In this document: piece by piece, positions 35 to 40,415 of the stretch | Layout: each line of letters begins with the position of its first letter | How positions within the stretch are numbered: the first letter of the stretch is position 1 | IMG/VR virus record: IMGVR_UViG_3300042691_010331 | Coordinates: 1 to 40,415 of that record | DNA: 40,415 nucleotides | Strand: one strand, 5' to 3' | Source of the DNA: a virus | The notes under the pieces: generated by a model | What the model saw: the letters and a program-made list of their open reading frames with translations, nothing else | Database searches by the model: none | Told to the model about the DNA's origin: nothing | Position numbers and translations under genes: made by a program

Positions 35-103
35 CTAATTTTTAATATTATGGCCATAGCTGATAGCGCATATATATGATGGGGGTGTGTCATATAGCGT
101 GAT

Positions 104-129
104 GGGGTGGCAGGGGTGTGCCGGGTGGG
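104..129 (+). other. G-quadruplex motif
   Basis: Four runs of three or four G are separated by loops of 5, 6 and 1 bases (GGGG-TGGCA-GGGG-TGTGCC-GGG-T-GGG). A further G5 run lies just upstream at 81-85. This fits the usual G3N1-7 quadruplex rule and stands out in a region that is otherwise A/T rich. Folding is a prediction. Position near the left edge and upstream of the late-gene promoter suggests a DNA-level role such as replication, packaging or pausing, but nothing in the sequence proves one. Confidence 0.55.
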
Positions 130-130
130 T

Positions 131-356
131 ATGTACATAGTGCACTCCACCTAAAAAATTTCTCCAAGAAATTCTCAATTATCGCCCTCATTAGAAATAC
201 CTAAAATAAAACATAAATAATGGAACAAATAAAATTGCTCGTTGTTGACAACTCGCATTAGCCTGACGGCTAAGCTTATTAAAAATACATTGACAAACTA
301 AATTTAATAAAAGTGTTGTATTTTTACAACACATATAAAAATAATTAAAATATTTC
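131..356. other. Non-coding stretch upstream of the + strand promoter
   Basis: No credible gene is seen. It holds two simple hairpins: TTAGCC-TGAC-GGCTAA at about 257-272 and GTGTTGTA-TTTT-TACAACAC at about 313-332. The second has an 8-bp stem and a T4 loop and ends 24 bases before the promoter -35 box. It could be an operator or a terminator of transcription arriving from the left. Confidence 0.5.
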
Positions 357-392
357 TTGACTTTTAGTCAAAAATATGCTATAATCAAAATC
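357..392 (+). promoter_or_regulatory. Extended -10 sigma70-type promoter for the structural arm
   Basis: The -35 box TTGACT (357-362) and -10 box TATAAT (380-385) are separated by exactly 17 bases. TGC directly before the -10 box makes an extended -10 element. The -35 box is one half of the palindrome TTGACTTTTAGTCAA, so a repressor could bind there. The core AAAAATATGCTATAATCAA recurs almost unchanged on the opposite strand at 39419-39447, upstream of the helicase. The start of transcription is expected near 392, which puts the conserved hairpin (416-435) about 24 bases into the transcript. Confidence 0.85.
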
Positions 393-410
393 TATTATAT
401 AGTATATATA

Positions 411-440
411 ATAGAAGCCGTGAGGCGGCACGGCTTCTAT
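411..440 (+). promoter_or_regulatory. Conserved promoter-proximal hairpin, left copy
   Basis: A perfect 12-bp stem (ATAGAAGCCGTG / CACGGCTTCTAT) closes the loop AGGCGG. The inner 20 bases, AGCCGTGAGGCGGCACGGCT (416-435), are identical to the inner 20 bases of the - strand hairpin at 39376-39395. It is the most GC-rich structure of the leader and the first hairpin of the predicted transcript. Position and duplication recall promoter-proximal antitermination RNAs such as put sites of HK022 or boxB of lambda. That role is inference. Confidence 0.8.
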
Positions 441-442
441 AA

Positions 443-758
443 TGTATGCGACAGATAAGTCGCATACACATAAACAAAGTGTCTCAAACACTTTGTTATA
501 ATAATAATAATAACAAGCTGTCTTAAACAGCTTGTTTATATATATATATATATATATATATAGGAATGTCTTTAAAAGACATTCCTTATAATATAATAAT
601 AAATAGAAAGCCTTTAAGGCTTTCTTATAATATATAATAATAGGTTCTAAGGAACCTATTAATTAATAGGAATGTCTTATAGGACATTCCTTATAATAAT
701 AAATAATTCCTGTTGACAGGAATTATTAATAGGAAGAAGTTGTTAACAACTTCTTCCT
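443..758 (+). repeat. Array of nine more hairpins in the late-gene leader
   Basis: Nine further hairpins follow one another, separated by A/T-only spacers. Positions: 443-468 (10-bp stem), 473-497 (10 bp), 512-536 (10 bp), 562-586 (11 bp), 605-625 (10 bp), 638-661 (10 bp), 668-691 (9 bp), 702-727 (11 bp) and 731-758 (28-base perfect palindrome). Stems are similar in length but different in sequence, with small loops often reading TTAA or similar. Those at 562 and 668 share the stem AGGAATGTC/GACATTCCT, and a relative (AGGAATGCC) occurs at 39304 in the right-hand array. Different stem sequences with conserved pairing argue for selection on structure. Confidence 0.9.
537..562. repeat. TA dinucleotide repeat
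   Basis: Thirteen consecutive TA units lie between two hairpins of the left array. This is a likely site of DNA melting and of length variation between isolates. The same A/T-only spacer style, in shorter form, occurs between other hairpins of the array. Confidence 0.9.
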
Positions 759-775
759 TATATATATAAATAATT

Positions 776-1276
776 ATGTTTAAAGATAATCTTAATAGAT
801 GGAGAACAGCTTCTCTGTTCTACGAATTAAATAAAGATGGATTTCCTTCCTGTTTTACGACACGAAGTGAGGATAGAGTTGTTGATGGTGTTACATATAA
901 AAGTTTTAGACGCCTCTATTTAAGTTACAATCATGTTCCTGGTTATGAATATGATTTCGCTAATGAGTGTTTAGGAGGATGGGAACATTGGTTAGCTGTA
1001 AGAAAAGGACGCCAATTACAGGAATTAATCACCTCCTGTCAAGCAGAGTTAGACATTAAAGCAAGAGCATCTGCAATAAAGAGTATTGTTAACACAGCAG
1101 TGGAAGGTGAAGGAAATACACAGCTTTCTGCTGCAAAATGGTTAGCTGAGAAAGGCTATATAGAAAAGAGAGGTCGTCCTACAAAGGCAGAGAAAGAAGG
1201 TTATTTAAAGCAAGAAGAGTCTTTACATAGTGCTGTAGAGGATGACTTACAACGTGTTCTAAAAGTGATAAAATGA
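776..1276 (+). CDS. terS: Terminase small subunit
   Basis: This is a probable DNA-recognition subunit of the packaging motor, 166 residues long. The centre and C-terminus carry the pattern common in podovirus small terminases: an alpha-helical stretch with AAKWLAEKGY, then KRGRPTKAEKEG, then a charged tail. It is the first gene of the structural arm, while the large subunit lies 4 kb downstream, past the fibre-like genes. The ATG at 776 has no Shine-Dalgarno sequence: the 20 bases before it are A/T only and follow the hairpin array directly. A small hairpin (AGAACAG-CTTCT-CTGTTCT, 803-821) lies inside the first codons. The stop overlaps the next start. Identification rests on motif style and position. 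Confidence 0.7.
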   Translation: MFKDNLNRWRTASLFYELNKDGFPSCFTTRSEDRVVDGVTYKSFRRLYLSYNHVPGYEYDFANECLGGWEHWLAVRKGRQLQELITSCQAELDIKARASAIKSIVNTAVEGEGNTQLSAAKWLAEKGYIEKRGRPTKAEKEGYLKQEESLHSAVEDDLQRVLKVIK

Positions 1277-9527: not shown

Positions 9528-10511
9528 ATGACTCAACTTACTTCAAATACTACTGCGTTTATTGACGCACAGATATATAGTAAATATATTATCGACAACT
9601 TGGAACCCTACTTGCTCCCAGAAATCTTCTGGCGCGATGTTTCAGATTTTCAAAATGGTACTACTCTCAATGTAAAAACGGTAGGTGATGTTGTACTACA
9701 GGAAGCATCTGAAGATTCTCCATTGACTTTTAGTCCAATTGATACTGGCACTGTAACGCTAAGCATCACTGAGTATGTTGGTGACGCTTGGGCTGTATCT
9801 GATGACTTGCGTAAAGATGGTAGCCAAATAGACCAATTGATGGGACTTCGCGCACGCGCATCTACTCGTGCATTAGCGCAACATCATGAATCTAAATTCT
9901 TGGCAAAAGCTGCAACCATTCAAACCAATGCTGATGTTAACTTAGTTAATGGTTCACCTCATCGTTGGGTAGCTGGTGGTTCAGGTGGTACAAACCGTGT
10001 TATGACGTTGGATGACATTGCCTATATGCAATATACTTTTGATAATGCTGATGCTCCTCAAGCAGGACGTGTCGCTATTGTCGATCCTATTGTTGCATTG
10101 GCATTAAATTCTCTGTCTAACTTAGTTAACGTATCTAATAACCCTATGTTTGAAGGTATTGTTACGTCTGGTTTCCAACAAAACCATAAGTTTGTGCGTA
10201 ACATTTTTGGATGGGATATTTGGACATCTACGCGTTTACCACGTAAAACCGCTACCGAAGCTCTTAATGCATCCTCTTACAGCTTGGCAAACGACACGGC
10301 TGAAATTGGTGACGTTGGTAACATATTTATGTGTGTTGCTGATGATAATTGCAAACCAGTTATGCACGCATGGAGAGCAATGCCTTCTGTTGAAGGATGG
10401 AGAGATCATGAATTGAGACAAGACAAGTTTCAAACTCTGTCTCGTTTTGGTTTTGCTGGCCAGCGTCTGGACACCATTGGTGTCATCTGGACTTCTCCAA
10501 GCGCATACTAA
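9528..10511 (+). CDS. Major capsid protein
   Basis: This 327-residue coat protein lies between scaffold and tail genes. It opens with an N-terminal arm (TSNTTAFIDAQIYSKYIIDN) and contains a beta-rich region (GTTLNVKTVGDVVLQEAS), a long central helix region (LMGLRARASTRALAQHHE) and a C-terminal RFGFAGQRLDTIGVIW strand, consistent with an HK97-type fold. An AAAGGA site precedes the ATG. Its codons are more G/C rich (CGT, CGC, GGT) than the neighbouring genes, as expected for a very highly expressed protein. A GC-rich hairpin follows directly after the stop. Confidence 0.92.
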   Translation: MTQLTSNTTAFIDAQIYSKYIIDNLEPYLLPEIFWRDVSDFQNGTTLNVKTVGDVVLQEASEDSPLTFSPIDTGTVTLSITEYVGDAWAVSDDLRKDGSQIDQLMGLRARASTRALAQHHESKFLAKAATIQTNADVNLVNGSPHRWVAGGSGGTNRVMTLDDIAYMQYTFDNADAPQAGRVAIVDPIVALALNSLSNLVNVSNNPMFEGIVTSGFQQNHKFVRNIFGWDIWTSTRLPRKTATEALNASSYSLANDTAEIGDVGNIFMCVADDNCKPVMHAWRAMPSVEGWRDHELRQDKFQTLSRFGFAGQRLDTIGVIWTSPSAY

Positions 10512-10519
10512 TATTAACT

Positions 10520-10537
10520 GAGCCTCTTAGGAGGCTC
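10520..10537 (+). terminator. Hairpin after the major capsid gene
   Basis: The perfect 7-bp stem GAGCCTC/GAGGCTC closes the tetraloop TTAG and is followed by TTCATAA. A copy with the loop TTCG follows the next gene. The poor T-run makes full termination unlikely. A partial terminator or a 3' stabiliser of capsid mRNA is more likely. Confidence 0.7.
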
Positions 10538-10557
10538 TTCATAAAAAGGAAATAAAA

Positions 10558-11049
10558 ATGAGTTTAGAAGCTGATGGAATCCGTGGTACTTCCAAAGTTT
10601 ACGGAGTACGTAACACAGATATGAGATATGGTGGTTTTACTGATGGTGATAGCCTGATTAAAACTATTGTATGGGATTTTAACTATGATGGCTTACCCGA
10701 TGCGGGTGCAACCAAGCATGAGTATGTAGTTCCTGCTGGAAGCACTATTGTATCATGCCATTTACGTATTGTTACAGCCTTTACGTCAACCTCAACTACA
10801 ACAGATTTGGATGTAGGTTTCCAACGTTCAAATGGTACTGAGATTGATAACAATGGTTTAATCACTGCCGCAGAAGCTACACAAACAGCTATTGCAGTAG
10901 TAGGAAGTTACATTGCTGGTGCTGGTGCATTAATTGGTAAAATCTCCGATGCTACTTATAATGCAGAACTAGTAGTTACTCCTACGGTTGCTGATTTATT
11001 AACCGGTCGTGGTCAAGTTATTCTGCAATACATCCCACCTGCTCCATAA
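10558..11049 (+). CDS. Capsid-associated beta-rich protein (decoration candidate)
   Basis: The 163-residue protein is beta-rich, with the C-terminal strand GRGQVILQYIPPAP. The centre (EYVVPAGSTIVSCHLRIVTAF) resembles phage head decoration or head-fibre proteins encoded directly after the coat gene. It has its own good ribosome-binding site (AAAAGGAAATAAAAATG) and is bracketed by two near-identical GC hairpins, so it may be expressed at a level close to the coat protein. Role inferred from place and composition. Confidence 0.6.
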   Translation: MSLEADGIRGTSKVYGVRNTDMRYGGFTDGDSLIKTIVWDFNYDGLPDAGATKHEYVVPAGSTIVSCHLRIVTAFTSTSTTTDLDVGFQRSNGTEIDNNGLITAAEATQTAIAVVGSYIAGAGALIGKISDATYNAELVVTPTVADLLTGRGQVILQYIPPAP

Positions 11050-11057
11050 TAATTATA

Positions 11058-11075
11058 GAGCCTCTTCGGAGGCTC
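11058..11075 (+). terminator. Second copy of the capsid-region hairpin
   Basis: The stem GAGCCTC/GAGGCTC is identical to the hairpin at 10520-10537, but the loop is TTCG, the very stable UUCG tetraloop in RNA. The bases after it (TTCATA, then a purine-rich ribosome site) are also similar. The change of loop with an unchanged stem suggests selection for the hairpin itself. Confidence 0.75.
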
Positions 11076-11095
11076 TTCATATAAGAGGATAAAAC

Positions 11096-11131
11096 ATGGC
11101 ATCAAGATCAAACATTGTATTTAAGGCTTAA
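11096..11131 (+). CDS. 11-codon mini-ORF before the next virion gene
   Basis: The reading frame MASRSNIVFKA has a good ribosome-binding site (AGAGGATAAAACATG) and stops two bases before the next gene. The AAGG inside its end is the only ribosome site for that gene, so translation of the peptide may drive translation of the 185-residue protein. It could also be the remnant N-terminus of a longer protein. The peptide itself may have no function. Confidence 0.35.
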   Translation: MASRSNIVFKA

Positions 11132-11133
11132 TT

Positions 11134-11691
11134 ATGACTGCTCATGCATCTTTACCTGAGGCTGATTTACATGAATGTAAGGGTGCTTCCACCGCTACTG
11201 TAGGTAAAACTATAGTAGCTGGTGGTGCAGGCACAGCTACATTTAAATATGCCAATCCACATGGGGCTGTATATTATACTGATTTAGCTACAGGCACTAC
11301 AATTACATATCCAAGTAGTTATACTATAGTAAACCCAACAACAACTGCTGTTGGTATGGCTATAGAATTTACAGAAGCTACAACAGCGAAATTAACATAT
11401 ACAGGTACAGACACACTAGACTGCCGAGTATTGGGGAATATTACGTTAGATCAATCTGCGGGTGCAGATAGAGATATTTATTTTAAAATCTATAAAAATG
11501 GTGTTGCTGTAACAGGGACAGAGGTTGGTATTACTACACAATCTGGTAAGAAGGTTAATATAGGAATCACATTTGATATTGCTAATTTAGCAACAAATGA
11601 CTATTTAGAAATTTATTGTAAAAATAATGGTGCATCAGGAGATGTAAAAATCTATTCATTCTATTTAACGGCATTCTGTATGAGAGGTTAA
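11134..11691 (+). CDS. Virion protein with a C-terminal jelly-roll-like domain
   Basis: The product has 185 residues in two parts. The N-terminal part (residues 1-60) has the common phage pattern LHECKGASTATVGKTIVAGGAGTATF. The C-terminal part (about 85-185) has the strand pattern of a jelly-roll head or fibre domain: DRDIYFKIYKNGVAV, KKVNIGITFDIANL, DYLEIYCKNN, KIYSFYLTAF. It probably decorates the head or forms a short fibre. The start is translationally coupled to a mini-ORF. Confidence 0.6.
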   Translation: MTAHASLPEADLHECKGASTATVGKTIVAGGAGTATFKYANPHGAVYYTDLATGTTITYPSSYTIVNPTTTAVGMAIEFTEATTAKLTYTGTDTLDCRVLGNITLDQSAGADRDIYFKIYKNGVAVTGTEVGITTQSGKKVNIGITFDIANLATNDYLEIYCKNNGASGDVKIYSFYLTAFCMRG

Positions 11692-11692
11692 T

Positions 11693-12448
11693 ATGGCCAT
11701 TAAAACTGTAGGCGAATTGGTAGATGACATTCTTTCTGCGATGGATAGCGATCCTGTTACATTATATGATGACACTGTTGAAAGTAGACAGGTAGCACAG
11801 ATATTAGAAACTGTATATTATCAAATTATAGATGGTAAAGATTGGCCTAATTTATATTCTCCTTTTAGACTAACTCAGACAGGTGTTTCTACTCCTACTC
11901 ACCTAACTATACCATCAGGCGTGATGGATATAAAGTATATTAAGTATGATTGTAAGGATGTGGATGATACCAAAGACAAATATACAGAAATCAAATGGAT
12001 GGAGCCAAAACCATTCATGGATATGTTAGATGCTAGAGATAGTAGTGCTACAGAGATAGACCAAATAACAGACACAAGTAGTATTTTACTTAATATCTAT
12101 AATGATAGAGCCCCTGTCTACTACACGTCATTTGATGAGCAAACTATTATTATGGATAGTTACGACAGTGCTGTAGAAACATATTTAAAGACAGCAAAAA
12201 CACAATGTTATGGTAAAGTATATCCAACTGTAACGATGGCAGATGATTTTATATTTGATTTACCACCAGATGCTTTTTCTCTTTTATTAGCGGAAGCAAA
12301 AGCTGTAGCATTTGCCGAATTAAAACAAATACAAAATCCTAAAGCAGAGCAATTTGCTGTTACACAGCGGCGCAGAATGTCTCAAGAAGCTTGGAGAATA
12401 CGTAATGGTATTTCCTACCCTAATTATGGTAGAAGTGGAGTGAAATAA
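11693..12448 (+). CDS. Tail tubular protein A (adaptor, gp11-like)
   Basis: The 251-residue protein would form the ring between portal and nozzle. The N-terminal pattern ([18 protein letters not shown], then [21 protein letters not shown]) and the C-terminal helix ([24 protein letters not shown] followed by [10 protein letters not shown]) are typical of T7 gp11-like adaptors. It lies between the head genes and the large nozzle gene, as in T7. The stop overlaps the next start (TAATG). Confidence 0.88.
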
Positions 12449-12579
12449 TGCCACTAAAAAAAGGAAAATCGAATAAAACAGTTAGCACGAATATAAGTAA
12501 GTTAATGCATGAAGGTTATCCACAAAAACAGGCAATAGCAATTTCTCTTAATAAATCAGGAAAGAAGAAGAAAAAATGA
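12448..12579 (+). CDS. 43-residue basic protein (DUF6496-like)
   Basis: This short gene encodes a lysine-rich protein with the pattern [19 protein letters not shown], then [19 protein letters not shown] and a run of lysines. The same small protein is very common near the tail genes of unrelated podoviruses and siphoviruses. Its function is unknown; a DNA- or RNA-contacting role is only a guess from charge. Start and stop overlap both neighbours by 1 and 4 bases. Confidence 0.8.
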
Positions 12580-12830
12580 AAGAATTTAAATCCCCAAATG
12601 AGGGAAAAACTCTACAACTTTATAATGAAGGTCATAGTGTACGTGTACGATGGAAAGAAGGTGGAGTATTACCGGAAACACTAAAAGGTACTTGGACAGA
12701 TGCTATTAGAGCAGAATACTCTATTATTAAATATCTTAATGATGCAGAACCATTGCACATTCAGGAAAAAGATGAGAATGGTATATTTCAGAAAGTAAAA
12801 AATCCGAAGAAAAATCCTGTTGAGGCTTAA
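12576..12830 (+). CDS. Conserved hypothetical protein in the tail cluster
   Basis: The 84-residue protein is charged, with an aromatic strand ([16 protein letters not shown]), a helix region ([16 protein letters not shown]) and a lysine/proline tail. It starts with an ATGA overlap on the preceding mini-gene and ends two bases before the nozzle gene. No domain is recognised. Place suggests a role in tail assembly. Confidence 0.55.
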
Positions 12831-12832
12831 TA

Positions 12833-15514
12833 ATGCCAACACAAAAAGGCAATCAACCTATAGCATCATTTGTTAAAGGACTTATCACAGAAGCAACTCC
12901 CTTAACATTTCCAGAGAATGCTTCATTAGATGAAATGAACTTCGAGCTTCTACTTGATGGTAGTAGGAAGCGTCGTTTAGGATTAGATTATGAAGATGGA
13001 TACGCTCTTATTGACCCAGGGGTTACAGCAGATAGTTTAGCTGAAGCTACACAATCTTGTTTCTATTGGCCATCTCCTAATGGCAGTAGAAAGGTGGATA
13101 TTGGTGTTGTACAAGTAGGTAGATTTATTTATTTTCTTAATTTATTAACATCAAATCCATCGGCTAATGTTTTAAATGGTGGTGTTCCTATTGAGTCTAG
13201 TGTACCTAATAATAGCAAATGGCAGTTTGCTATTATTAAAGATTATTTGATTGCTGTTAATGCTTATCTTGATACTCCTTATTTGGTATCTTATGATGAT
13301 GAAGCAGATGTAATATCATATAGAACAGGTCGTATTGTAATACGGGATTTGTATGGAGTAGATGACGGATTAGCTATAACAGAAAGACCAACAACATTAT
13401 CAGATTTACATAAATATAATTTAAGAAATCAAGGATGGAGTACGAATATTGTAACCACTTGTGGTACAGATGTATTAGATTGTACATTTACTACTCTAGG
13501 AATATACCCAGGAAATTCAGACCAATGGGGTATTGGTCGTATTGGAGATTTAACATCTGCAGATGTTTATAAATATGACCCATCTATAGCAACAAGAAAT
13601 GCTGTTGATGGGGGGCAAGTGCCACAAGGTAGTTTTATTATAGACTTGTATAATAGAGGGGAATCTCGATTAGCTAATACAGGAATTACACTTCCTGCTG
13701 ATAGAGAAACCACATTTATATCCACCGTGGCAGCTTATGCTGGACGTGTTTGGTATTCAGGAATACAAGGCAAAATTGTTGATGGTGATGATAGAAGTGT
13801 CCATTTAAATAATGCTGTTTTATTCTCACAAGTATTTGACACTTATGAGTCTTTAGTAAGATGTCATCAAGCATCAGATCCAACAAGTTATACCTTTAGT
13901 GATGTAGTAGATACTGATGGTGGGATTATTCATATTATTGGTGCTGTTGATATTGTTAAACTGCTTCCTATTAAACACAGTTTGTTTGTATTTGCTAGAA
14001 ATGGTGTATGGGAAATCACAGGTGGACAGGATGGATTTACAGCTACAGTATTTCAAGTAAATAAAATATCTAGTATAGGTGTATTCTCTCCTTATAGTAT
14101 TGTAGAAGCTAATGGTGTTATTTACTTTTGGAGTGTGTCAGGTATTTATGCTATTACACCAAATCCAAATTTAAGTGGTGTATGGGATACAAATTCTGTC
14201 TCTATGACTACAATACAGAGTTTATATAATAATATTCCAGATATTATTAAACGTGGAGCTAAAGGTTTTTATGATGCTGCTGCAAATAGAGTTAGATGGT
14301 TGTTTGCATCAGATTATGGTCATGTACAAGGACAGCCTATAGATCAACCACCTTTAGTTATATATCCAAGCATAGGAACTCCAGTAGATATTGATTTTGG
14401 TAGATATACATCCTATTTCGATGTTACCGCCTTAGATAGTGAAACAGTAGTAATTACTGCTGTTACTCGTCCTGGTGCTGGTGGTGGTGCTTTCGGTGAT
14501 ATACGTGGAATTGTTTGTAAAGTGGATGTTACAGATAACACTATTACAACTATAGGTAGTCCAACTATTATAGAGAATGTTAGTAGTACCTATTTAAACA
14601 TTTCTACTGTTAAACTTGAGGCTGGTAAATTTGCTGTTATTGCCCACGAGGACACGGGTAAAGATGTATATTGTGTAGTATGCACTGTTTCTGGAACTAC
14701 TATACTTCCAACAGCTAGGCAAGCTATTTCAACAACAACAGTAGCTAATATATTTACAACAACTCCATCATCTCGATTGGAGGATAATAAATTTATATGT
14801 GGATGGGAAGGAAATACTGGCACAACATCTAGTAGATCACCCCGAACAGTTGTTGTATCTGTTAGTGGCACAACCATTGCTGCTGCAACTGAAGTAGTAT
14901 TAAATGACTATCCATCACAAGACACCCAAATTATTGCATCTAATTCATCAAATTATACTTTATATGCAAATGTTGCAGTTTCAGGTGCGCGTAAAATAGT
15001 TCCAATTTCTGTTAGTGGATCAACAATAACACCAGGTTCATTAAGTGATGCTATTACAGGGTATTATACTGGTTCGACAGAAAATACAATTGCACCATTA
15101 AAAGATACAAATATTGTTTTAGTAGCCACAGATAATTTATCTGCCTTATTTATAGCTGCTGTGGATTTATCTGCACCAGCAGCTAGCCAATTGAAAGACA
15201 CTATATCAATTAGTACAATAAGTAATTTATGGCCTGGAAGTATCCGTATTATTAGTGGTTATAATGGTAAATTCACAGTATTCTATCAAAATAGTACAGG
15301 CATGGCTTATCAAAACTTTGAATATTCTGGTGGAAGTATCACTACAGTAGGATCTGAGGTTATTATTGATGCAGCCAATACTACTTCGAGTAATTACTAC
15401 CTTCAATGCACTGATGAACCTATTGCTGGAGATGTTTATGGTGTGGTCTATCCAGCAGTGTCTGGTACACCCTATCCATTAAAATTATTCTTATATAACA
15501 CAGGGAATGCATAA
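12833..15514 (+). CDS. Tail tubular protein B (nozzle), N-terminal part with added beta domain
   Basis: The 893-residue product starts like podovirus nozzle proteins (IASFVKGLITEATPLTFPENASLDEMNFEL, with DGSRKRRLGLDYE) and keeps the pattern as far as GFYDAAANRVRWLFASDYG near residue 490. The remaining 390 residues are unlike a normal nozzle. They consist of about six repeats of 60-65 residues with hydrophobic strands and the motif VSGTTI or VSGSTI, looking like a beta-propeller. The usual nozzle C-terminus is instead encoded by the next gene, joined by TAATG. The added domain may be exposed on the tail, for instance for receptor contact. Confidence 0.8.
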   Translation: MPTQKGNQPIASFVKGLITEATPLTFPENASLDEMNFELLLDGSRKRRLGLDYEDGYALIDPGVTADSLAEATQSCFYWPSPNGSRKVDIGVVQVGRFIYFLNLLTSNPSANVLNGGVPIESSVPNNSKWQFAIIKDYLIAVNAYLDTPYLVSYDDEADVISYRTGRIVIRDLYGVDDGLAITERPTTLSDLHKYNLRNQGWSTNIVTTCGTDVLDCTFTTLGIYPGNSDQWGIGRIGDLTSADVYKYDPSIATRNAVDGGQVPQGSFIIDLYNRGESRLANTGITLPADRETTFISTVAAYAGRVWYSGIQGKIVDGDDRSVHLNNAVLFSQVFDTYESLVRCHQASDPTSYTFSDVVDTDGGIIHIIGAVDIVKLLPIKHSLFVFARNGVWEITGGQDGFTATVFQVNKISSIGVFSPYSIVEANGVIYFWSVSGIYAITPNPNLSGVWDTNSVSMTTIQSLYNNIPDIIKRGAKGFYDAAANRVRWLFASDYGHVQGQPIDQPPLVIYPSIGTPVDIDFGRYTSYFDVTALDSETVVITAVTRPGAGGGAFGDIRGIVCKVDVTDNTITTIGSPTIIENVSSTYLNISTVKLEAGKFAVIAHEDTGKDVYCVVCTVSGTTILPTARQAISTTTVANIFTTTPSSRLEDNKFICGWEGNTGTTSSRSPRTVVVSVSGTTIAAATEVVLNDYPSQDTQIIASNSSNYTLYANVAVSGARKIVPISVSGSTITPGSLSDAITGYYTGSTENTIAPLKDTNIVLVATDNLSALFIAAVDLSAPAASQLKDTISISTISNLWPGSIRIISGYNGKFTVFYQNSTGMAYQNFEYSGGSITTVGSEVIIDAANTTSSNYYLQCTDEPIAGDVYGVVYPAVSGTPYPLKLFLYNTGNA

Positions 15515-16287
15515 TGGCTTTATCAGAAATTAGCTATCCTAATAGCTATAATAGAGAACTAATATTGGATTTAACATTAAATGCTTTTAGTGTATATGAT
15601 TTCGACCATGAGAACTATCCACGTGTCCATGATTATGTTCAGCTTCCTGGTTTTATCCTCACAGAAACATCAACGAGTGTTTATGATAGTTCTGGTAATG
15701 TTGTAGTAGATGGAAGTGGTAATCCTGTTACCACTTTAGTGTTAGTTACAGGGAATAGAAGCACGGACTTGCGAAGAGAGAATTTTAAATTATTAGTAAG
15801 TGAGTCTCCTCAATTTACACTAGGGGAATATAAGGATTACACATTTACAGACTGGGTGAGTTTTGATGGCGTTGGAGTTGACTTTTCTAGTTTTTTGCTT
15901 ACTGGTTATAATTTAGCTGGTGATATGGCCAGACAAAAACAAGTTATATATTTACAAGTGTTTTGTAGACGAACAGAAGATTACTATGATATTTTAGGTA
16001 ATTTGGATCATCAGTCATCTTGTATGGTCAAAAGTGAATGGAATTGGAATAATAGTGCAGCGCAAGGCAAATGGGGAACAAGTTTCCAAGCATATAGGTT
16101 TTTATATCCGTATGCAGCCACAGGAACAACAGGTGATGCGTTTGACTACGGGGAAACAGTAGTGGTTACAAAAAATAAACTACGTGGTAGAGGCAAATCC
16201 TTATCTATTCTATTTGAATCTGCAGCAGGAAAAGATTTACACCTTTATGGATGGAATGCCCTTGTAACAATAAATGGAGAACCTTAA
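15514..16287 (+). CDS. Tail tubular protein B, C-terminal part
   Basis: The 257-residue product begins YPNSYNRELILDLTLNAFSVYDFD, which in related nozzle proteins usually follows the FYD...RVRWL segment within one chain. It ends with the usual RTEDYYD, SCMVKSEWNWNNS, VVVTKNKLRGRGKSLSILFES, GKDLHLYGW pattern. It looks like the C-terminal third of the nozzle protein turned into its own gene by the domain insertion upstream. Both chains probably assemble in the same ring. An independent minor tail protein is less likely. Confidence 0.7.
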   Translation: MALSEISYPNSYNRELILDLTLNAFSVYDFDHENYPRVHDYVQLPGFILTETSTSVYDSSGNVVVDGSGNPVTTLVLVTGNRSTDLRRENFKLLVSESPQFTLGEYKDYTFTDWVSFDGVGVDFSSFLLTGYNLAGDMARQKQVIYLQVFCRRTEDYYDILGNLDHQSSCMVKSEWNWNNSAAQGKWGTSFQAYRFLYPYAATGTTGDAFDYGETVVVTKNKLRGRGKSLSILFESAAGKDLHLYGWNALVTINGEP

Positions 16288-16580
16288 TGTACCACATGAT
16301 ATATGATGATGCTGATATTGAAATTATTTCAGAAACGTATGATAGTATTCCAGATGGTGTAGTGTTAAATACAGAAGTAAAACAATTCTCATTTTCCATA
16401 TATAAGAAATTTAAAAAAATATGGGTAGAGTTGCAGAAAGAGTTTAAGCACATTGGATATACTTACGTGATTTCAATCCCACTTGAAGAAGAAGATGTGC
16501 GCTGGAATGAGCATTGGGGTTTTAAAGACACTGGTCTGAGAGTTGATGGTCATAAAGTAATGAGGTTTGATTTATGGTAG
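16287..16580 (+). CDS. gp13-like internal/assembly protein with acetyltransferase-like end
   Basis: The product is 97 residues from the ATG at 16287, which overlaps the previous stop; an in-frame ATG 36 bases upstream is less likely. The C-terminal pattern (YVISIPLEEEDVRWNEHWGFKDTGLRVDGHKVMRFDL) looks like the last strands of a GNAT fold, as in T7 gp13. The place after the nozzle gene and before the gp14-like gene matches T7 order exactly. The N-terminal half of a full GNAT is missing, so enzymatic activity is doubtful. Confidence 0.6.
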   Translation: MYHMIYDDADIEIISETYDSIPDGVVLNTEVKQFSFSIYKKFKKIWVELQKEFKHIGYTYVISIPLEEEDVRWNEHWGFKDTGLRVDGHKVMRFDLW

Positions 16581-17101
16581 CCGAACTTATAGGAAGTTTA
16601 TTTACAAAGAATAAGCGCAAGAAAATACGCCGGGCACAAAGAGCAGCTTTTGCTGCTATTTCTGCCGAACAACAGAAACTATTTCAGCTAGAAACTCTAC
16701 GCGCTGATTTTGGAACAAGGCAGGAGAAAATCCAACAATTACGTGAAAGTAGAATACGAAGGGCACAAATATTAGCTAGTGCAGCCAATTCAGGGGCTAT
16801 GGATAGTAGTAGTGCTAAAGGTGGTGCATCTAGTGCTTATTCTACTGCTATAGGGAATATAGGTGTGTTAAATGCGTTCCAGAGCTACAGTAAAGCTATA
16901 GGAACATCCCAATCTGAAATAGCCAAGCAAGAAGGAATATTACAGCAACTTGGTGTTAAGATGGAGGCTCAACAGGCTAAGGCACAAATGATAGGTAGTA
17001 TTGCTGGTGCTGTTGGTACTATTGCCACACTTCCGTGGGGTGGTGGAGTTGGTAGTGTTGCTACGTCAATTGGTCGTCAAGTTGGATTAGGTGGTGGATA
17101 A
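16574..17101 (+). CDS. Internal virion protein B (gp14-like)
   Basis: This 175-residue protein begins with a very basic helix (KNKRKKIRRAQRAAFAAISAEQQ) and continues with the coiled segment QEKIQQLRESRIRRAQILASAANSG. It ends in an Ala/Gly-rich hydrophobic part (IGSIAGAVGTIATLPWGGG) able to insert into a membrane. This is the pattern of T7 gp14, the core protein that forms the outer-membrane pore at DNA ejection. It overlaps its neighbours by 7 and 1 bases. Confidence 0.75.
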   Translation: MVAELIGSLFTKNKRKKIRRAQRAAFAAISAEQQKLFQLETLRADFGTRQEKIQQLRESRIRRAQILASAANSGAMDSSSAKGGASSAYSTAIGNIGVLNAFQSYSKAIGTSQSEIAKQEGILQQLGVKMEAQQAKAQMIGSIAGAVGTIATLPWGGGVGSVATSIGRQVGLGGG

Positions 17102-20100
17102 TGTATTCGTTAGATGAAGATAAAATACCAGAGAGTTTACCAGAACGTGCCCCATTAAAACCACTACCTAATGATGTTGAAGCTAGGCAGCAAGCTTATT
17201 ATGCTGCTTATTCTGCTTCCAAGAAGTCATTAATAGGACGGGCTAGATTAACAGCACAAGAACAACAAAAAGAGTTTCTAAATTTATATGGAAAAATCCA
17301 TAATGATTTAGTTACTAATGGTGTGTCTCAGGACATGGAGGATGAGAAAACCGCTATTATTAATAGAGATGCTCAGGATGAGCAACAGGATATTATTAAT
17401 ATTGCTACAGATCCAACTATCCCTGTTGAACAAAGGGCTAATGTTTTGACCAATAAGCCGAAGAATCCTTTCAATTGGGCTGATAAATATAAAACTACCA
17501 TCACGGCTGAGAATCATGGTGTTACAAAGAAAGATGAATTAGCTCAGGATAAGAATGTAGCTACATACATTCCAAAGAACATACAGGCTGCTAAAGACGT
17601 TGAAGATTTAAAGAATGCTGCTGCTGGTTCTTTAAATATCACACATGCTGGATTTGCTGGTTCTGCCTTGCTCAATTTTATCCCTGGTAGAACAGGCGTT
17701 CTTACAGCTAATCTATATGCTGCTATGACTAACGATCATAGTTTTACTACTAGAGCTAAAAATATTGTTCTTCCTGGTAGTGCTAATAAAGAAATGGGTA
17801 AGTTATGGCAACAATGGGATGCTAAAGAAAAGAGAGAAGGGTTAATACGCATTATACGATATATGGAGTCATCCACGGCATTAGATGCTGACAAAGTGGA
17901 GATGCTATTAAAGACATTAGAAAATCCAGATCAACCTTGGTGGGAAACATCCCTTAGTAATATTAGTGGCATATTAGATGCAACCTTTGTTGGGGCTGCT
18001 GCAAAATCCCCTATAAAATCAGCTAAGGAGTTTATTAAATGGGCAACAACATATAATGCAGCAGGTGATAAAGCTGCTGTGTCATTTGTTAAAAATGTGT
18101 TCACTAAGAAGAATGTAGCTGCTGCTGGAGCAACTACTAAGGCAGCCCAAGAAGTAGCTACAGATGCAACTATTATACAAGCTGTTACTAAGAATGAGCC
18201 ACCTGTAACATCCCCTTTAGGGATTGAGGTGATTAATAATCCTGACAAGGCTTCCAAAACTATTGTAGCTAGTGTTTTAGACGACACAGGTGAAGTGGCT
18301 AAGGTTGTTACACCTGAGGGTAAAGGGCAGATAGTTGATGTTGTTCTTCCAAAGAGTGTTGATTCTGGTGAATTACAGACAATGTATCCAGATGTATTTG
18401 AGAAGATTAACACTTACGCAAAAGCTTTAAAACCTGAATCACAAATCAATCCTGCTTTGTATGATGATGCTTTTCAACAAAGTGAAATTAATACACACAT
18501 TGAGATAATAAAGAGAACACAATACCCTAGCTTGCAGCTTTCTAACACTGTTGTTGATTTCCGTTTTGGTGATACATCCTACATAAAAGCTATGTATGGA
18601 GAAACACCTAATAGAGGTTGGCTGACAGAAGGTGAGGCTATGTCTATGTTAAATAAACTGAAAGGAGATATTCCTCCTGATGTTTATAAGAATATGGAAG
18701 TGACCTATCATCCTAAGAATAATGAATATTACATTACACATAACATAGAGAAACAATTTACGCCTAATGTATTAATGGGTGATGATTATGGTGCTACATT
18801 TCAAATACCATATACTAAGAAAGAAATTAGCTTAGATGCTATTGCTAGAAATAAATACATTAATTGGATATTGCCTAGCTCAAGTAGAATGACCTCTGGC
18901 CTATCTAGCAGTGCTATAGCTACAGAAATGGGTGTAGCACAGAACATTTCAAAGTTAAATCAATATTTGAATAACTTTGTCATGAATAAGACGGATGTAT
19001 TTCCTGACTTGAATAAAGAATTGAAACTCATTCATGAGCAACAGATAAGTGGCTGGAAATCTGTGAAAGAACTGTTAGCTGACAAACCACATCTGTCTGA
19101 AGCACAGAAAAAGGATTTAGTGGAAGCCTATTATTCTGTTAAAGCATTAGGTGATACGTTCTATGACATGGCTAACAAACGTCATAGAGGTGATTTAGTG
19201 TTAGATGGACAGAAGGCTATCTATGGATCAGATGGAAGTATAAAAGGGTTTGGTAAAGATGTTCCATTTGATGAGACAACACATAAATATATATTTGACA
19301 TTGATTTAAATGCTGCTGTTGTTTTAACCAAAGAAACATTAGCTGGTGGTAAGATAGTTAAATTAAAATCACTTCTGTCAGATGCTAATGGTGATAAATG
19401 GGAATATGCTATATTACGTGGTGGTAGTAAGCTAGGAGAACTTCCTCCGAATACACTTAGTAGAATAGATAATTACATTCCATGGTATCACACTGCTGAT
19501 TTCTTTGTACAGCGTACACCATTAAAGATGCGTCTGAACGGCTTATCTGTTTCTGATGAAAGTACCCTGGCTAAATTCTCAGAACGTATAGCTGGCGCTC
19601 GTACACATGCCGATGCTGACAAGATAGTAGCAGAAATGACAGCAGAATTTGGTGACACGTATACATTTAAAACTGTATTAAGAAGCGAGAATGTTCTTGA
19701 TGAGATAGTTAATGTACATGAAGAAGCTACTAAATATGCTGCTTGGGAAAAGCACAGAGGACAGAGATTACTTAACTATGATCCTATAGATGATCCTATC
19801 AGAAGCTTACATATGATGGGTAAATCTTTAATGCAACTAGACGCATGGGAAGATTTTAATAGATATTTCAAACAACGCTTTGAGAAAACCTATGCGGACA
19901 TATTACCAGAAGGACAAATACCTAAAAATCCAGATAGGTGGACTCTACCAGATGGGAAAAATACAAAAGAAAATATAGCTTTATTAGCTGCGGGTAAGCG
20001 TGAACTAGAATGGCATAATGGTATATTCAGAAGCATGGTGGAGAGTGATAGAGCGGTGTCGTCATTCTTTCATTCTACTGCTGATGTGATGAATCAATAT

Positions 20101-26731: not shown

Positions 26732-28408
26732 TCATTGACAAGCCTCACACTCACCCTTACTGGCCGTTACACCAGCTTTACTATAGCAATAATATAAACT
26801 TAAAATATCTTCATTTAAAAAGGCTTCTTTATGAACAGAACTAATATACTCTTCAGAAGCATCAGCAGCAAAGAACAAATTAACACTCTGTCCTTGATCT
26901 ATATATGGCTGACGCTGTGCTGCATGGCGTATAATAACATGTTGGTCAATTTCAAACGCGGTTTTGAACACTTGCTTTTCATAATCACTCAACCAATTTA
27001 CAGACTGAACACTACCAAAATTATTAACTATCTCCTGTATGTGCTTAGTGTCATATACATGACGCACTTTCATAATTTCTAGTAAAACTGAATTAACTCT
27101 TTCCATTTCACCTGCCACAGTGGTTTGTGTGTATGTCATGGCCGGGTCTGGATTGATACCTTCACTAATCCCTCCCATAATAAGTGCTGTACTCTTTGTA
27201 GGAGCAATAGCCATTAAATGAGTGTTCATTTTTTGGGTGTCTTTACACCAAAGAGGACGCCCAAATAAGAAAGATGAATCTTCAGACGCCTGTGTGCTTT
27301 GTTGTTTAATATGTTTAAATATAGTAGTGTTTAAAAACTGTGCCTCTAAACTTTCAAATGGTATGTTTTTAAGTTGTAATAGTGTATGCCAACCACATAC
27401 ACCTAAACCTAATGCTCTACCATTCTGAGTAAATTGTCTAGCTTTCTCTAGTCCATATACACCTTCACTCTGCTTAATAAACTCCTCAGCAACACAATCT
27501 AGGAATATTGTAGAAAAGTATACGGCATTTGTATTCTTCCACTCATCCCACTTAGCTAAATTCATAGATGATAGCACACATGTAAAAGTGTTGTGGTCAT
27601 CACTATGTAACATTATCTCTGTACAAAGATTACTAGCTTTTATGTCTAAATTGTTATTAATATATGCTAACGGTCTGTGTCTATTAGCTTTATCAACAAA
27701 AAAGAAATAACCTTTGCCGGTTATCATCTTTGTTTTTAATGCTTTTTGATAACGTCGAATAGCTTCAGAATTTGATTTGTTCAAATCCTTAATAAACTCG
27801 TCTGTGATATTCCATCCAATATTTACATCATCAGGATGGTGTAATATAAAATCACACAGTTCATCAAAATCACCATGTGTGATGGGTAAATATCCTGCCC
27901 ATGCCCCACGTCGGGCTGTGCCTTGAGCAACATAACGCATGTCCTCTACAAATCCTTTAACAACAGGTAATACACCATAGGACTTACCACCTGTAGTAAT
28001 ATCACTGCCTCTTGCACGGATAGCTCCTAAATAACTTGATGTACCAAACCCATACTTAGTTAATATGGCATTCTCATGTTTGGATGTATAAATACCATCA
28101 ATACTGTCCGGTATATACCCACCAGAACAGGATACAGGCATACCTCTGTCTGTTCCCATATTGGCTAATATTGGTGTTGAAGGGCTTAACCACCCTTTCC
28201 ATAGAAGCTCAAAAAATTTTTCTGTATAGAATGTCTCATTTATTGTGTGCATTGCTGCTGTTTTAGCAATACGCATGTATTGCTCTTTAGCTGTATTAGC
28301 TTTATACAAATATCTCTCTTGAAATAATTGCCACCCTGCTGTGGTAAACCAAGAAGGTATTGTCCCTTGTTTCTGTAATCTTTTTCTTTCACTACTGTAT
28401 TTGTTCAT
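26732..28408 (-). CDS. nrdA: Ribonucleotide reductase large subunit, compact class I
   Basis: The 558-residue subunit reduces ribonucleotides to dNTP precursors. The ATG at 28408 overlaps the nrdB stop (TAATG) and is chosen over one 33 bases upstream. Catalytic residues are present: C94 in PVSCSGG, N260-C262-E264 in NLCTEI (thiyl radical cysteine), C277 in FTCVLSSMN, tyrosines Y539-Y540 in LSLYYCYS, and C-terminal C554/C557 in GECEAC. It is about 200 residues shorter than E. coli NrdA and lacks the N-terminal ATP-cone, so allosteric activity control is probably lost, which suits a phage that wants constant dNTP supply. Confidence 0.93.
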   Translation of the reverse strand: MNKYSSERKRLQKQGTIPSWFTTAGWQLFQERYLYKANTAKEQYMRIAKTAAMHTINETFYTEKFFELLWKGWLSPSTPILANMGTDRGMPVSCSGGYIPDSIDGIYTSKHENAILTKYGFGTSSYLGAIRARGSDITTGGKSYGVLPVVKGFVEDMRYVAQGTARRGAWAGYLPITHGDFDELCDFILHHPDDVNIGWNITDEFIKDLNKSNSEAIRRYQKALKTKMITGKGYFFFVDKANRHRPLAYINNNLDIKASNLCTEIMLHSDDHNTFTCVLSSMNLAKWDEWKNTNAVYFSTIFLDCVAEEFIKQSEGVYGLEKARQFTQNGRALGLGVCGWHTLLQLKNIPFESLEAQFLNTTIFKHIKQQSTQASEDSSFLFGRPLWCKDTQKMNTHLMAIAPTKSTALIMGGISEGINPDPAMTYTQTTVAGEMERVNSVLLEIMKVRHVYDTKHIQEIVNNFGSVQSVNWLSDYEKQVFKTAFEIDQHVIIRHAAQRQPYIDQGQSVNLFFAADASEEYISSVHKEAFLNEDILSLYYCYSKAGVTASKGECEACQ

Positions 28409-29364
28409 TATTTTACCCAAATAAATTCTTGTTCTTTCCAATCTCTAGTGTATTCTCTTCCTTGTCCACTGAAGAAATCATTATATTGGAAATTGTTTAT
28501 CCCTGTATAAAACCAATTTGCTATTGGGTTGAACTCTCCATCAGCAACAGCCCAGTGCTTAGGATCAATCCATAAATTCTGTAAGCAGATAGCAATACGA
28601 CTTTGTACAAACAGTTTTAAATCTGTGGCTGTGATTCCCTCAATTTCACCTTTCTCGAAAATCATATCAATTATCTGATTTTCATGCTCATATATCTGCT
28701 GTGCTATTTCATATATGGGAGAAACATCATCTAATTCTCGGATGTGTCTATATACATAAGCACCAGCCATGCTATGTAAATTTTCATCTCTAACAGAGAA
28801 GTTTATCCCTCTTACAATGTTAGTAAGTTTGTTCTTTCCCAAACTCTGGAAGTGTTTTAGAAAAGCGAAACTACTATACAATATAACACCTTCTACCATT
28901 GAGAATGCTGCCAAGGATAGAGCATCATATGGGTTATTAATATACTCATCTATTGCATTCATACGATTTACCAGAACAGGATTAGTTTGATAGTCTGTAT
29001 AGAATGCAGGATTAGCTGCATTTAATAATTCATTAATCTTGTTATAAAATGGCTTATGAACAGCCAATTCAAACATACCAAAGGTGGCGGCCATTGTCTG
29101 TAATTGGTGATGTTGAAATGTATCTTTGAATCTCCCATTCCAATACTCTGCACCAGCTTCTTGCTCATACAATGTGAAGAGTTTTAATACAGTGAATACA
29201 CCATGCCGTTCTGCATCTGTCAAATTTACAAGAACGTCTTGTACATCTTTTTCCACGTGTATTTCATCGGCAGTCCAAAACACCTTTAATTGGTCTTTGG
29301 TAAACTTCTCTATCTCTGGAAAGTCATTGGTAAAAACTACCGTTTTATCAAAAAAGTTAGCCAT
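28408..29364 (-). CDS. nrdB: Ribonucleotide reductase small subunit
   Basis: The 318-residue radical-generating subunit has ferritin-like helices carrying the metal site: E67 or E69 (TLYEQEAG), H103 (FELAVHKPFY), E158 (MVEGV), E194 and H197 (RDENLH). Y107 sits at the place of the radical tyrosine, four residues after H103. Unlike the usual ExxH, E99 is four residues before H103. The C-terminus ends DWKEQEFIWVK. A GGAG site precedes the ATG. It is co-translated with nrdA. Confidence 0.92.
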   Translation of the reverse strand: MANFFDKTVVFTNDFPEIEKFTKDQLKVFWTADEIHVEKDVQDVLVNLTDAERHGVFTVLKLFTLYEQEAGAEYWNGRFKDTFQHHQLQTMAATFGMFELAVHKPFYNKINELLNAANPAFYTDYQTNPVLVNRMNAIDEYINNPYDALSLAAFSMVEGVILYSSFAFLKHFQSLGKNKLTNIVRGINFSVRDENLHSMAGAYVYRHIRELDDVSPIYEIAQQIYEHENQIIDMIFEKGEIEGITATDLKLFVQSRIAICLQNLWIDPKHWAVADGEFNPIANWFYTGINNFQYNDFFSGQGREYTRDWKEQEFIWVK

Positions 29365-35223: not shown

Positions 35224-35365
35224 TTTCGTCTTTATGACCAAACCATTCTGTGGCTTCTCCAGATTCTATGTAACAACCTAGAGGATTAATATCACAATTG
35301 GGGTATGCCGGGCATCCTAAATGCGTTGGTTTGTAATTATTTTCAAAATAAACTACATCATCCAT
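35207..35365 (-). CDS. 52-residue insert protein between polymerase parts
   Basis: The product starts at an ATG overlapping the stop of the polymerase thumb gene (TATGGATGA), eight bases after GGAG, and overlaps the palm gene by 17. It is acidic, with three cysteines (HLGCPAYPNCDINPLGCYIESG). It sits exactly where the chain of a normal polymerase would continue from the thumb into motif A. It could be a metal-binding linker partner or an unrelated small protein inserted into the gene. Confidence 0.65.
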   Translation of the reverse strand: MDDVVYFENNYKPTHLGCPAYPNCDINPLGCYIESGEATEWFGHKDENDSEY

Positions 35366-38075: not shown

Positions 38076-39215
38076 TTAAATTTCTTTGAATCTTGCATGT
38101 AGTGCATCAATTAAACATTCTGTTCGATGTTCCCCTGGTCGAAACTTATTCTTAACAGTGCGAATAAATCTAACATCCTCCATTCCAATGTCATTAGTAT
38201 ATCCTATTCCTAAAATAAAATCTGCTTCGCTACTCTTCGCTGTATGTGCTGAGGCAATGTCTGTGTGTTGCAACCACTTCTTATTCTCTGCTGTGCTACC
38301 TGCTTGACACACTGCAATAACAGGGGCATAGGTTTTTGCTATCTCTCGTGCCCATGTGTATATTTTACCAAGCCGTAAATCTTCCCTATCTCCTTTAAAT
38401 CCATAGATTTTATCTATGTTATCTATTACTATCAATTGCGGCGTATATAGCTCACAATAGCCTTCTATGTCTCGTTTGTGCATCATTGGCATGTCATGAA
38501 ACTTTAAATTTGTCTCCGACAGAAATATGTCAGCACACTTTTGCCTATTTTCCTTTAACCTTTCATCTGTTGCACCAAAATATGCCTGAAATATACGCCA
38601 TTTCATCCTAGCGGCAGCTTCTTCGTTGAAACAGAATAGTGTGGGCTTTGCCTGAGATAACATAAAAGACACTTCGCTTGCTATAAATGTTGACTTACCT
38701 GTGTTTGTTCTTGCAAACACAAATCCAAAATCACCTTTATGTAATCCACCTAACACTCTGTTTAGCCAAGACAGACGCCATTGTAAGCCACCATTTCTAT
38801 CAACTTCTTTTTCGAGTAATTCAAAATCATCTGTAACAAGTGAATTATCAACAGAAACATCAATCACCTTTCTGTTATACACATCTTCTAATTCCTCAAT
38901 ATTTCCTTTACCTTCCGAAATATTAATTGCTGCCAGTGCTACGTCGTGCGCCCATTGTCTCTGTAGAAATTGCTCTACAACATTTTGCATGATTTCCTCT
39001 GACACATCTGGCAACTGCTTCACTTCGTTTAAAACAGTAATGTTATCAGGAGATAACAACATTAGTTCTTCAACAGAAATGTCATTTTGTGACATTTCAT
39101 GAGCTTTGTTTATGTGTTCATAGACAGAATGTTTACTTCTGTCTATATATTTGTAGTATTTATTATAAAAGTGCTTCTTTAAAAGCACTTTTATTATATA
39201 TAATTCTATATTCAT
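38076..39215 (-). CDS. DnaB-like replicative helicase
   Basis: The 379-residue RecA-fold helicase has Walker A FARTNTGKST at about 167-176, Walker B QLIVIDNIDK at 260-269, and C-terminal motifs IAVCQAGSTAENK and IRTVKNKFRPGEH. The N-terminal 130 residues are helical and probably bind partners. Unlike T7 gp4 it is not fused to primase; the primase is a separate gene upstream. The ATG has no Shine-Dalgarno sequence, and three perfect hairpins are built from its first 47 codons (39076-39098, 39120-39146, 39165-39194). Confidence 0.9.
   Translation of the reverse strand: MNIELYIIKVLLKKHFYNKYYKYIDRSKHSVYEHINKAHEMSQNDISVEELMLLSPDNITVLNEVKQLPDVSEEIMQNVVEQFLQRQWAHDVALAAINISEGKGNIEELEDVYNRKVIDVSVDNSLVTDDFELLEKEVDRNGGLQWRLSWLNRVLGGLHKGDFGFVFARTNTGKSTFIASEVSFMLSQAKPTLFCFNEEAAARMKWRIFQAYFGATDERLKENRQKCADIFLSETNLKFHDMPMMHKRDIEGYCELYTPQLIVIDNIDKIYGFKGDREDLRLGKIYTWAREIAKTYAPVIAVCQAGSTAENKKWLQHTDIASAHTAKSSEADFILGIGYTNDIGMEDVRFIRTVKNKFRPGEHRTECLIDALHARFKEI
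39076..39194 (-). repeat. Three hairpins inside the start of the helicase gene
   Basis: GAAATGTCA/TGACATTTC with a 5-base loop (39076-39098), ATAGACAGAA/TTCTGTCTAT with a 7-base loop (39120-39146), and ATAAAAGTGCTT/AAGCACTTTTAT with a 6-base loop (39165-39194) are all perfect stems of 9, 10 and 12 bp. They continue the style of the non-coding array directly upstream, although here the bases also encode the protein N-terminus. Confidence 0.85.
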
Positions 39216-39232
39216 AATATTACTTATTATAT

Positions 39233-39364
39233 ACAGGATGTTTAAGACATCCTGTTATTATTAATATATGTCTGTTAGAACAGACATATTTCTTATATAT
39301 ATAAGGAATGCCATTAAGGGCATTCCTATTATTATTTATATATACGCTGTTTTGATATAGCATA
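39233..39364 (-). repeat. Hairpin array in the helicase leader
   Basis: In the non-coding gap before the helicase, stems occur at 39233-39255 (9 bp, ACAGGATGT), 39266-39289 (11 bp, ATATGTCTGTT), 39304-39327 (9 bp, AGGAATGCC), and a weaker one with one mismatch at about 39340-39364. They are separated by A/T-only spacers, as in the left array. The first also covers the area where a ribosome site would be expected upstream of the helicase ATG. Confidence 0.85.
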
Positions 39365-39372
39365 TAATATAT

Positions 39373-39398
39373 AACAGCCGTGCCGCCTCACGGCTGTT
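39373..39398 (-). promoter_or_regulatory. Conserved promoter-proximal hairpin, right copy
   Basis: On the - strand a 10-bp stem (AACAGCCGTG/CACGGCTGTT) closes the loop AGGCGG. The inner AGCCGTGAGGCGGCACGGCT (39395-39376) is identical to the left copy at 416-435. Outer base pairs differ from the left copy but pair perfectly (compensated), which supports a folded RNA. It begins about 23 bases after the -10 box. Confidence 0.8.
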
Positions 39399-39412
39399 AA
39401 TTAAGTAATTAA

Positions 39413-39447
39413 AAATTGATTTTAGCATATTTTTACCTGTTTGTAAA
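39413..39447 (-). promoter_or_regulatory. Extended -10 promoter for the helicase and downstream replication genes
   Basis: On the - strand, -35 TTTACA (39447-39442) and -10 TAAAAT (39424-39419) are 17 bases apart, with TGC before the -10 box. The core AAAAATATGCTAAAATCAA matches the + strand promoter at 370-388 with one change. It lies inside the - strand gene series, so it would boost helicase, polymerase and nucleotide genes over the primase-side genes. A TTGACA is present a little further upstream but with too long a spacer. Confidence 0.8.
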
Positions 39448-40139: not shown

Positions 40140-40415
40140 TAGTTTTTCCTTGTTAAAATTTTCAATTGCTCATAAGTGTATTCCTTTGGATCGTGTTCGG
40201 ACAATACGCTCGAACAGCGAAAGCCATTTAAACGCATTTCCTGGGCTTTTTCTACAGTTTTGATATGCATATCAGGATCAAGAAATAAAACGCATTCTAT
40301 GGGGTTTATATCACGAATATGGGTAAAATTTATATTAGTGCCAAACAGACATTTAACCCATACACCTAGTTTACTCAATTTTATTGCTGAAATAACATCC
40401 TCCACTAAAAAAAGC
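40139..40415 (-). CDS. DNA primase, C-terminal part (cut by window edge)
   Basis: The open frame runs off the right edge. The visible part starts FLVEDVISAIKLSK, the entry to a Toprim domain, then VLFLDPDMHIKTVEKAQEM (acidic D-x-D pair) and ends with VLSEHDPKEYTYEQLKILT. This matches the end of T7-type and DnaG-like phage primases. The zinc-binding and catalytic N-terminal parts would lie beyond 40415. A GTG in this frame at 40405 is inside the domain and is not the true start. Confidence 0.82.
   Translation of the reverse strand, partial: LFLVEDVISAIKLSKLGVWVKCLFGTNINFTHIRDINPIECVLFLDPDMHIKTVEKAQEMRLNGFRCSSVLSEHDPKEYTYEQLKILTRKN

Follow-up and report, generated by a model that had tools for sequence, protein, structure and literature searches.

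The stretch of DNA analysed here, hereafter the window, is the whole of IMG/VR record IMGVR_UViG_3300042691_010331, a virus contig of 40,415 bp from an uncultured podovirus. Judged by TerL similarity and genome layout, the phage can be classed as a Zobellviridae-like podovirus. Its TerL matches that of Methylophilales phage MEP402 at 59%, that of MW202697 at 62% and those of several IMG/VR fragments at 78-80%, and its genes lie in two opposed arms with RNR, a split DNA polymerase, PhoH and MazG all present. Between 25042 and 39215 on the minus strand, the early arm holds a class I RNR pair, thymidylate synthase, PhoH and MazG, and the parts of the DNA polymerase lie at 36433-36939, 35361-36056 and 34516-35241 on the same strand. 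The longest open frame, of 1576 aa, has an internal virion protein match. At the extreme start of the contig (1-34), a 16-bp unit, AGAAACATTCTTATTT, stands twice in close tandem.

Two genes are of particular concern here. On the plus strand, the first late gene (776..1276) matches phrog_8035, a family of unknown function, and is homologous to the gene directly before TerL in ICP2; it is probably the small terminase. On the minus strand, 38076..39215 encodes a DnaB-like replicative helicase (phrog_19, E 7e-40). Further upstream on that strand are two small ORFs and, truncated by the contig end, what is probably the C-terminal part of a DNA primase (40142..40415; phrog_22173, a weak match with E 8e-4). 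A primase-helicase gene order is also found in Alcaligenes phage QDWS535 and in MEP401/402. The contig is probably incomplete, with part of the early arm missing and the break falling inside the primase.

Promoters and a duplicated hairpin

The late (TerS/TerL) operon is preceded by a sigma70-type extended -10 promoter at 357..385 (+), TTGACT-17-TATAAT, which scores 11/12. A second extended -10 promoter, TTTACA-17-TAAAAT, lies before the helicase gene at 39419..39447 (-) and scores 10/12. Both carry a TG before the -10 and are ordinary strong sites of their type. They share the core AAAAATATGCTAWAATCAA, at 370-388 (+) and 39434-39416 (-), just as the first-pass annotation of this DNA had described. 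Promoters of similar type are also present in the related contig L017 and in QDWS535, so the likeness between the two copies in the window is in itself unremarkable. The match in QDWS535 was considered as a counterpart of the whole module and rejected, being a promoter similarity only with no GC hairpin there. The same annotation had set the two copies at the head of two large operons, one for each arm. This is correct for the plus copy, which drives the late operon; the minus copy is instead internal to the early arm, between primase and helicase, because the putative primase fragment lies upstream of it.

What is duplicated beyond the promoters is a 20-mer, AGCCGTGAGGCGGCACGGCT, which occurs exactly twice in the window, at 416-435 (+) and 39395-39376 (-), and forms the core of a hairpin (hairpin A) at 411..440 (+) and 39372..39399 (-). 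The gap between the -10 and the 20-mer is 30 nt in the plus copy and 23 nt in the minus copy, within the range first reported. Shuffled sequences yielded no match to the 20-mer, even with up to three mismatches, and the duplication is thus not expected by chance. The four pairs that flank the 20-mer are all paired in both copies; two of them are changed on both sides (A-T/C-G and G-C/A-T) and two are identical. The earlier reading of these outer pairs, that they differ yet stay paired and so point to RNA structure, is borne out for the two that changed.

As a functional unit in its own right, the 20-nt hairpin fared less well. It is only the first of a train, a larger feature that had escaped the first-pass annotation, and the 20-mer is found in no other IMG/VR viral contig. 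Among 84,980 prokaryote genomes it has two exact matches, in unrelated bacteria, which is about chance level. A search of related phages for hairpins repeated on both arms found none comparable. Hairpin A is the sole part of the leaders with a fixed sequence; it would be a start module copied between two operons, possibly with an extra specific contact, and its identity in both copies leaves room for a separate, specific function.

Trains of hairpins behind both promoters

Directly behind each of the two promoters stands a train of near-perfect hairpins, each independent of the next. The linkers are A/U throughout the plus leader and, on the minus strand, as far as the 5' UTR extends. The plus leader, which ends at the first late ORF (776), holds 10-11 of these hairpins in 400 nt, with stems of 9-12 bp and a median centre spacing of 34.5 nt. 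This region contains 11 perfect hairpins per 400 nt, against a mean of 0.06 and a maximum of 1 in dinucleotide shuffles, and its minimum free energy is -156 kcal/mol, against -64 for the shuffles (z -22.5). Read by eye, an A/T-rich 10-bp hairpin stands at the predicted 5' end (391..415); on its 3' side it shares sequence with the outer stem of hairpin A, which makes these two alternatives. After hairpin A come hairpin B (443..468) and eight further perfect hairpins at 473-497, 512-536, 562-586, 605-625, 638-661, 668-691, 702-727 and 731-758, all on the plus strand.

G and C in the plus leader are nearly confined to the hairpins. The spacers (AA, CATA, ATAATAATAATAAT, (TA)n, TATAATATAATAATAAAT and the like) contain no G and a single C, none is longer than 25 nt, and together they hold 13 TAA; ATG does not occur in them, although the leader has four ATGs elsewhere. 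The signature of an intrinsic terminator, a G/C-rich hairpin followed by a sense-strand U-tract, was not found in the plus leader, where the longest T-run of the spacers is 2. Four hairpins of this train do look like terminators when read on the antisense strand; on the sense strand none does. Many loops in the trains of the window are variants of YUUAA or UUAA, and related hairpins recur within the leaders, where AGGAATGYC is present three times and AACAA..TG twice.

The minus-strand train comprises about nine hairpins, five in the 5' UTR and four in the helicase ORF. There are 7 perfect hairpins per 400 nt in this leader, where shuffles give a mean of 0.09, and the z-score of its fold is -8.9. 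After hairpin A comes a hairpin B at 39341..39366, with eight pairs, one of them G-U, and three further 5' UTR hairpins found by the scan at 39327-39304, 39289-39266 and 39255-39233. The other four span 39038..39194 and belong to the helicase ORF, all within its first 180 nt (ORF nt 22-51, 69-97, 118-140 and 152-178). The first 150 nt of this ORF hold three hairpins, a number reached in 0 of 1000 synonymous-codon shuffles (mean 0.18, maximum 2). On the sense strand, weak terminator-like calls occur at hairpin A alone, with the tail TATATTATAT.

Leaders and early zones of related phages

The closest available relatives, chosen by their first late gene (48-54% identity), do not keep the 20-mer, whose presence next to the promoter in related genomes had been proposed as a check on the module; they keep a hairpin architecture instead. 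L017, whose promoter is of the same type, carries a late-leader train of about eight hairpins of other sequence (z -10.0), and the late leaders of L016 and L020 have fewer hairpins, again of other sequences (z -6.1 and -6.7). In L129, with 37% identity in the first late gene, six hairpins stand immediately 5' of its ATG. This gene was compared at 69 distinct loci: a density of at least 5 hairpins per kb is reached upstream of the gene at 10 of them and downstream at none, and density is higher upstream than downstream overall (Wilcoxon p 0.001). The helicase loci of 80 relatives were examined and have no train. Among the available records, which may lack near-identical ones, the minus train is thus far unique to the window. 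Trains are likewise absent from the Zobellviridae and neighbours examined, namely MEP401/402, CRP-4/5, ICP2, ICBM2, P12053L, SIO1, PA11, GP100, VP41s3 and the oyster-associated records, the last read around TerL only.

Upstream of the late gene, four contigs share a conserved non-coding element (window 78-200, L016 1462-1560, L020 2868-2975, L118 260-365). In this element a G-rich stretch precedes GTGCACTnCAnCTAAA..TTTCT..AAATTnTCAAT; it might be a packaging site, a genome end or an origin.

In a sister clade, the early arm starts with a zone of 1-2 kb that reaches 14-21 hairpins per kb, compared with 1-3 in most of the rest of these genomes. Such zones were located at 26990-28990 in G010, 41700-43900 in G011, 10400-12700 in G012, 42400-46000 in G013 and 13500-18500 in G014 (L242-L253, L260). 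Most stems there have 7-8 bp and close on a loop of three bases; C(GAA)G is the loop found most often in the G010 clade. In G010 most of the hairpins are inside small (overlapping) ORFs with ribosome-binding sites. In homologous genes of G010 to G014, aligned on protein and not on structure, hairpin positions match with different letters: 13 of 45 are shared where circular shifts lead one to expect 4.6 (p 0.001). Synonymous shuffles of the zone genes (300 each) were exceeded in every case by seven of nine genes, one of them narrowly, and not by the other two. Paired changes are seen in the alignments. In one (CAGTCC-TTT-GGACTG and AAGGCC-TTT-GGCCTT), a Ser to Ala substitution is matched by a silent change; in another (ATCGTC-CTT-GACGAT and ATTGTC-ATA-GACAAT), a silent change is matched by Asp to Asn. 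Since a scan picked out the hairpins, selection bias affects everything here but the position test and the synonymous test.

The search for a gene that tracks with the hairpin zones found no partner protein specific to the zone genomes and the window. Two long genes that the zone genomes share at the CobS/CobT-like place of ICP2 were rejected as partners, having homologs in ICP2 and G019, which are without zones, and being absent from the window.

From their place, their spacing and their shared entry into codons, we infer that the trains of the window and the zones of the sister clade are one phenomenon, with no sequence in common. Since the same control region in relatives has trains or zones of unrelated sequence, it is base pairing and spacing that are kept rather than letters, and structure, not sequence, seems to be under selection. 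It is possible, and we put it forward with caution, that some dsDNA phages carry a distributed, sequence-free structural code in the control region and first downstream genes: a hairpin every 30-40 nt in UTR and codons alike, maintained by compensatory and even amino-acid-changing substitutions, which would give a hairpin-saturated transcript head outside every described RNA family. Structured RNAs of DNA phages usually come to light as families with conserved sequence. In the present case nothing recurs but pairing, spacing and place, and searches with covariance models therefore miss the trains; Rfam gave no family above the gathering threshold. A small search of the open-access literature found no description of such hairpin arrays.

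Possible roles of the hairpins

Our preferred explanation, which we hold tentatively, is that of a passive, RNA-only leader for read-through and stability, a structured shield of nascent RNA against termination and decay. The molecule under selection would be the transcript. The train would fold in the wake of RNA polymerase departing from the promoter, so that no long stretch stays open. Rho would then find nowhere to load, and endonucleases no point of attack, on a leader that is long and poorly translated, and the missing U-tracts would stop the hairpins from acting as terminators. Antitermination in a broad sense, with polymerase reading through a long ribosome-free leader, may be at work. 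What speaks against the shield is the lack of trains at the helicase of the 80 relatives and in the cultured Zobellviridae examined, together with the weak terminator-like calls at the minus hairpin A; A/U linkers are, moreover, typical RNase E sites. A shield for untranslated RNA also does not explain all of the hairpins, because ribosomes would unwind those in translated genes. The leaders provide a natural test case for the question of how long leaders that lack an antiterminator protein avoid Rho and RNases.

One alternative is that the array provides binding sites for one or more RNA-binding proteins of phage or host, which would read the shape of the stem and a loop such as YUUAA to control the late and helicase genes. 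The recurrent loops of the window fit this reading, as do the regular spacing of about 35 nt and the prevalence of C(GAA)G in the G010 clade. However, palindromes in AT-rich DNA favour such loop centres by chance, loops vary between clades, and no gene is specifically common to the hairpin genomes and the window. We regard it as rather unlikely.

A function at the level of DNA is similarly doubtful: cruciform extrusion or folding of single-stranded DNA at the control region, for instance in replication initiation or genome entry. The stems are nearly free of G-U and A-C, with a non-Watson-Crick fraction of 4.4% compared with 12.7% in chance hairpins elsewhere, the arrays cross coding and non-coding DNA alike, and C(GAA)G is a very stable DNA mini-hairpin loop. 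On the other hand, the trains start directly after promoters, and the second one stands before the helicase, away from the divergent junction. In six of six trains, moreover, A outnumbers T in the spacers as read on the transcribed strand, and the terminator-like tails of the plus train are found on the antisense strand only. Finally, G-U exceeds A-C in stems read on the sense strand (48 and 30, p 0.054, which is suggestive only). On these grounds RNA is favoured over DNA. A role for DNA nevertheless stays a candidate, since the stems are unusually perfect and the sense-strand G-U excess is weak. The leaders and zones also bear on whether RNA or DNA structure shapes the codons of phage early genes.

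It is quite improbable that the hairpins are a mutational by-product, left without selected function by a polymerase or repair process that perfects palindromes and duplicates them near strong promoters. Very perfect stems, related hairpins within leaders and fast sequence turnover between relatives would all follow from such a process. Yet the hairpins are restricted to the control region, with 1-2 per kb elsewhere, their positions are conserved across homologous genes, and spacers free of G and C need selection or a rule of composition.

The first-pass annotation had likened the duplicated module to put or nut sites, noting that no N-like protein was evident. This last point agrees with our scans against PHROG, which covered proteins of at least 60 aa, most of the early ones (the early arm being incomplete) and several of the late ones, and found no N-, Q- or sigma-like protein. 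Phage N4 uses hairpin promoters, which serve its virion RNA polymerase. These share short perfect hairpins with the window and the G010 clade, and three-base loops with the latter; the stems of the window are of 9-12 bp, however, and its trains lie downstream of ordinary sigma70 promoters. N4-type promoters are unlikely because the longest frame of the window, at 1576 aa, leaves no virion polymerase of N4 size. In lambda nut/N, a hairpin also lies in the leader of operons read by the host polymerase, whereas the window has many hairpins, no N-like protein was found in it, and hairpin A is by eye unlike boxB.

In HK022, PUT RNA contacts the beta' zinc finger of RNA polymerase (PMC4499122). As in the window, its RNA hairpins lie directly behind phage promoters, twice per genome, with no phage antiterminator protein found; put is one two-hairpin element, whereas the window has 8-11 hairpins of different sequence in a train that enters coding sequence. 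The least probable of the explanations is put-type antitermination by RNA alone, with hairpins A and B binding elongating RNA polymerase directly to make it resistant to terminators: two hairpins with an invariant core do stand right behind each promoter, but the A-B gap is 2 nt in the plus leader and about 5 nt in the minus one, the two copies of B differ in sequence, no other IMG/VR viral contig has the 20-mer, the rest of the train is left unexplained, and blastn of 385-465 against 50,697 phage records gave no significant similarity, with a best E of 0.7 among the matches listed and no lambdoid record among them.

The nearest known kind is that of structured, stabilising 5' UTRs such as that of E. 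coli ompA, in which two hairpins are separated by A/U-rich single strands. The window shares this arrangement and differs in having ten hairpins, in an array that also extends into an ORF and has counterparts of unrelated sequence in related phages; its train is an extreme variant of such leaders.

Repeated palindromes were also observed in two other genomes. In QDWS535 (L014), TCCTAAYRTTAGGA is repeated many times on both strands (25208, 35817, 41997-48093), for the most part where the early arm lies close to the divergent region, and could be an operator or a hairpin. In G019 (L264-L266), TATAACATTGTTATA is repeated at 3505, 16529, 27017, 28558 and 41634 and is probably the operator of a dimer.
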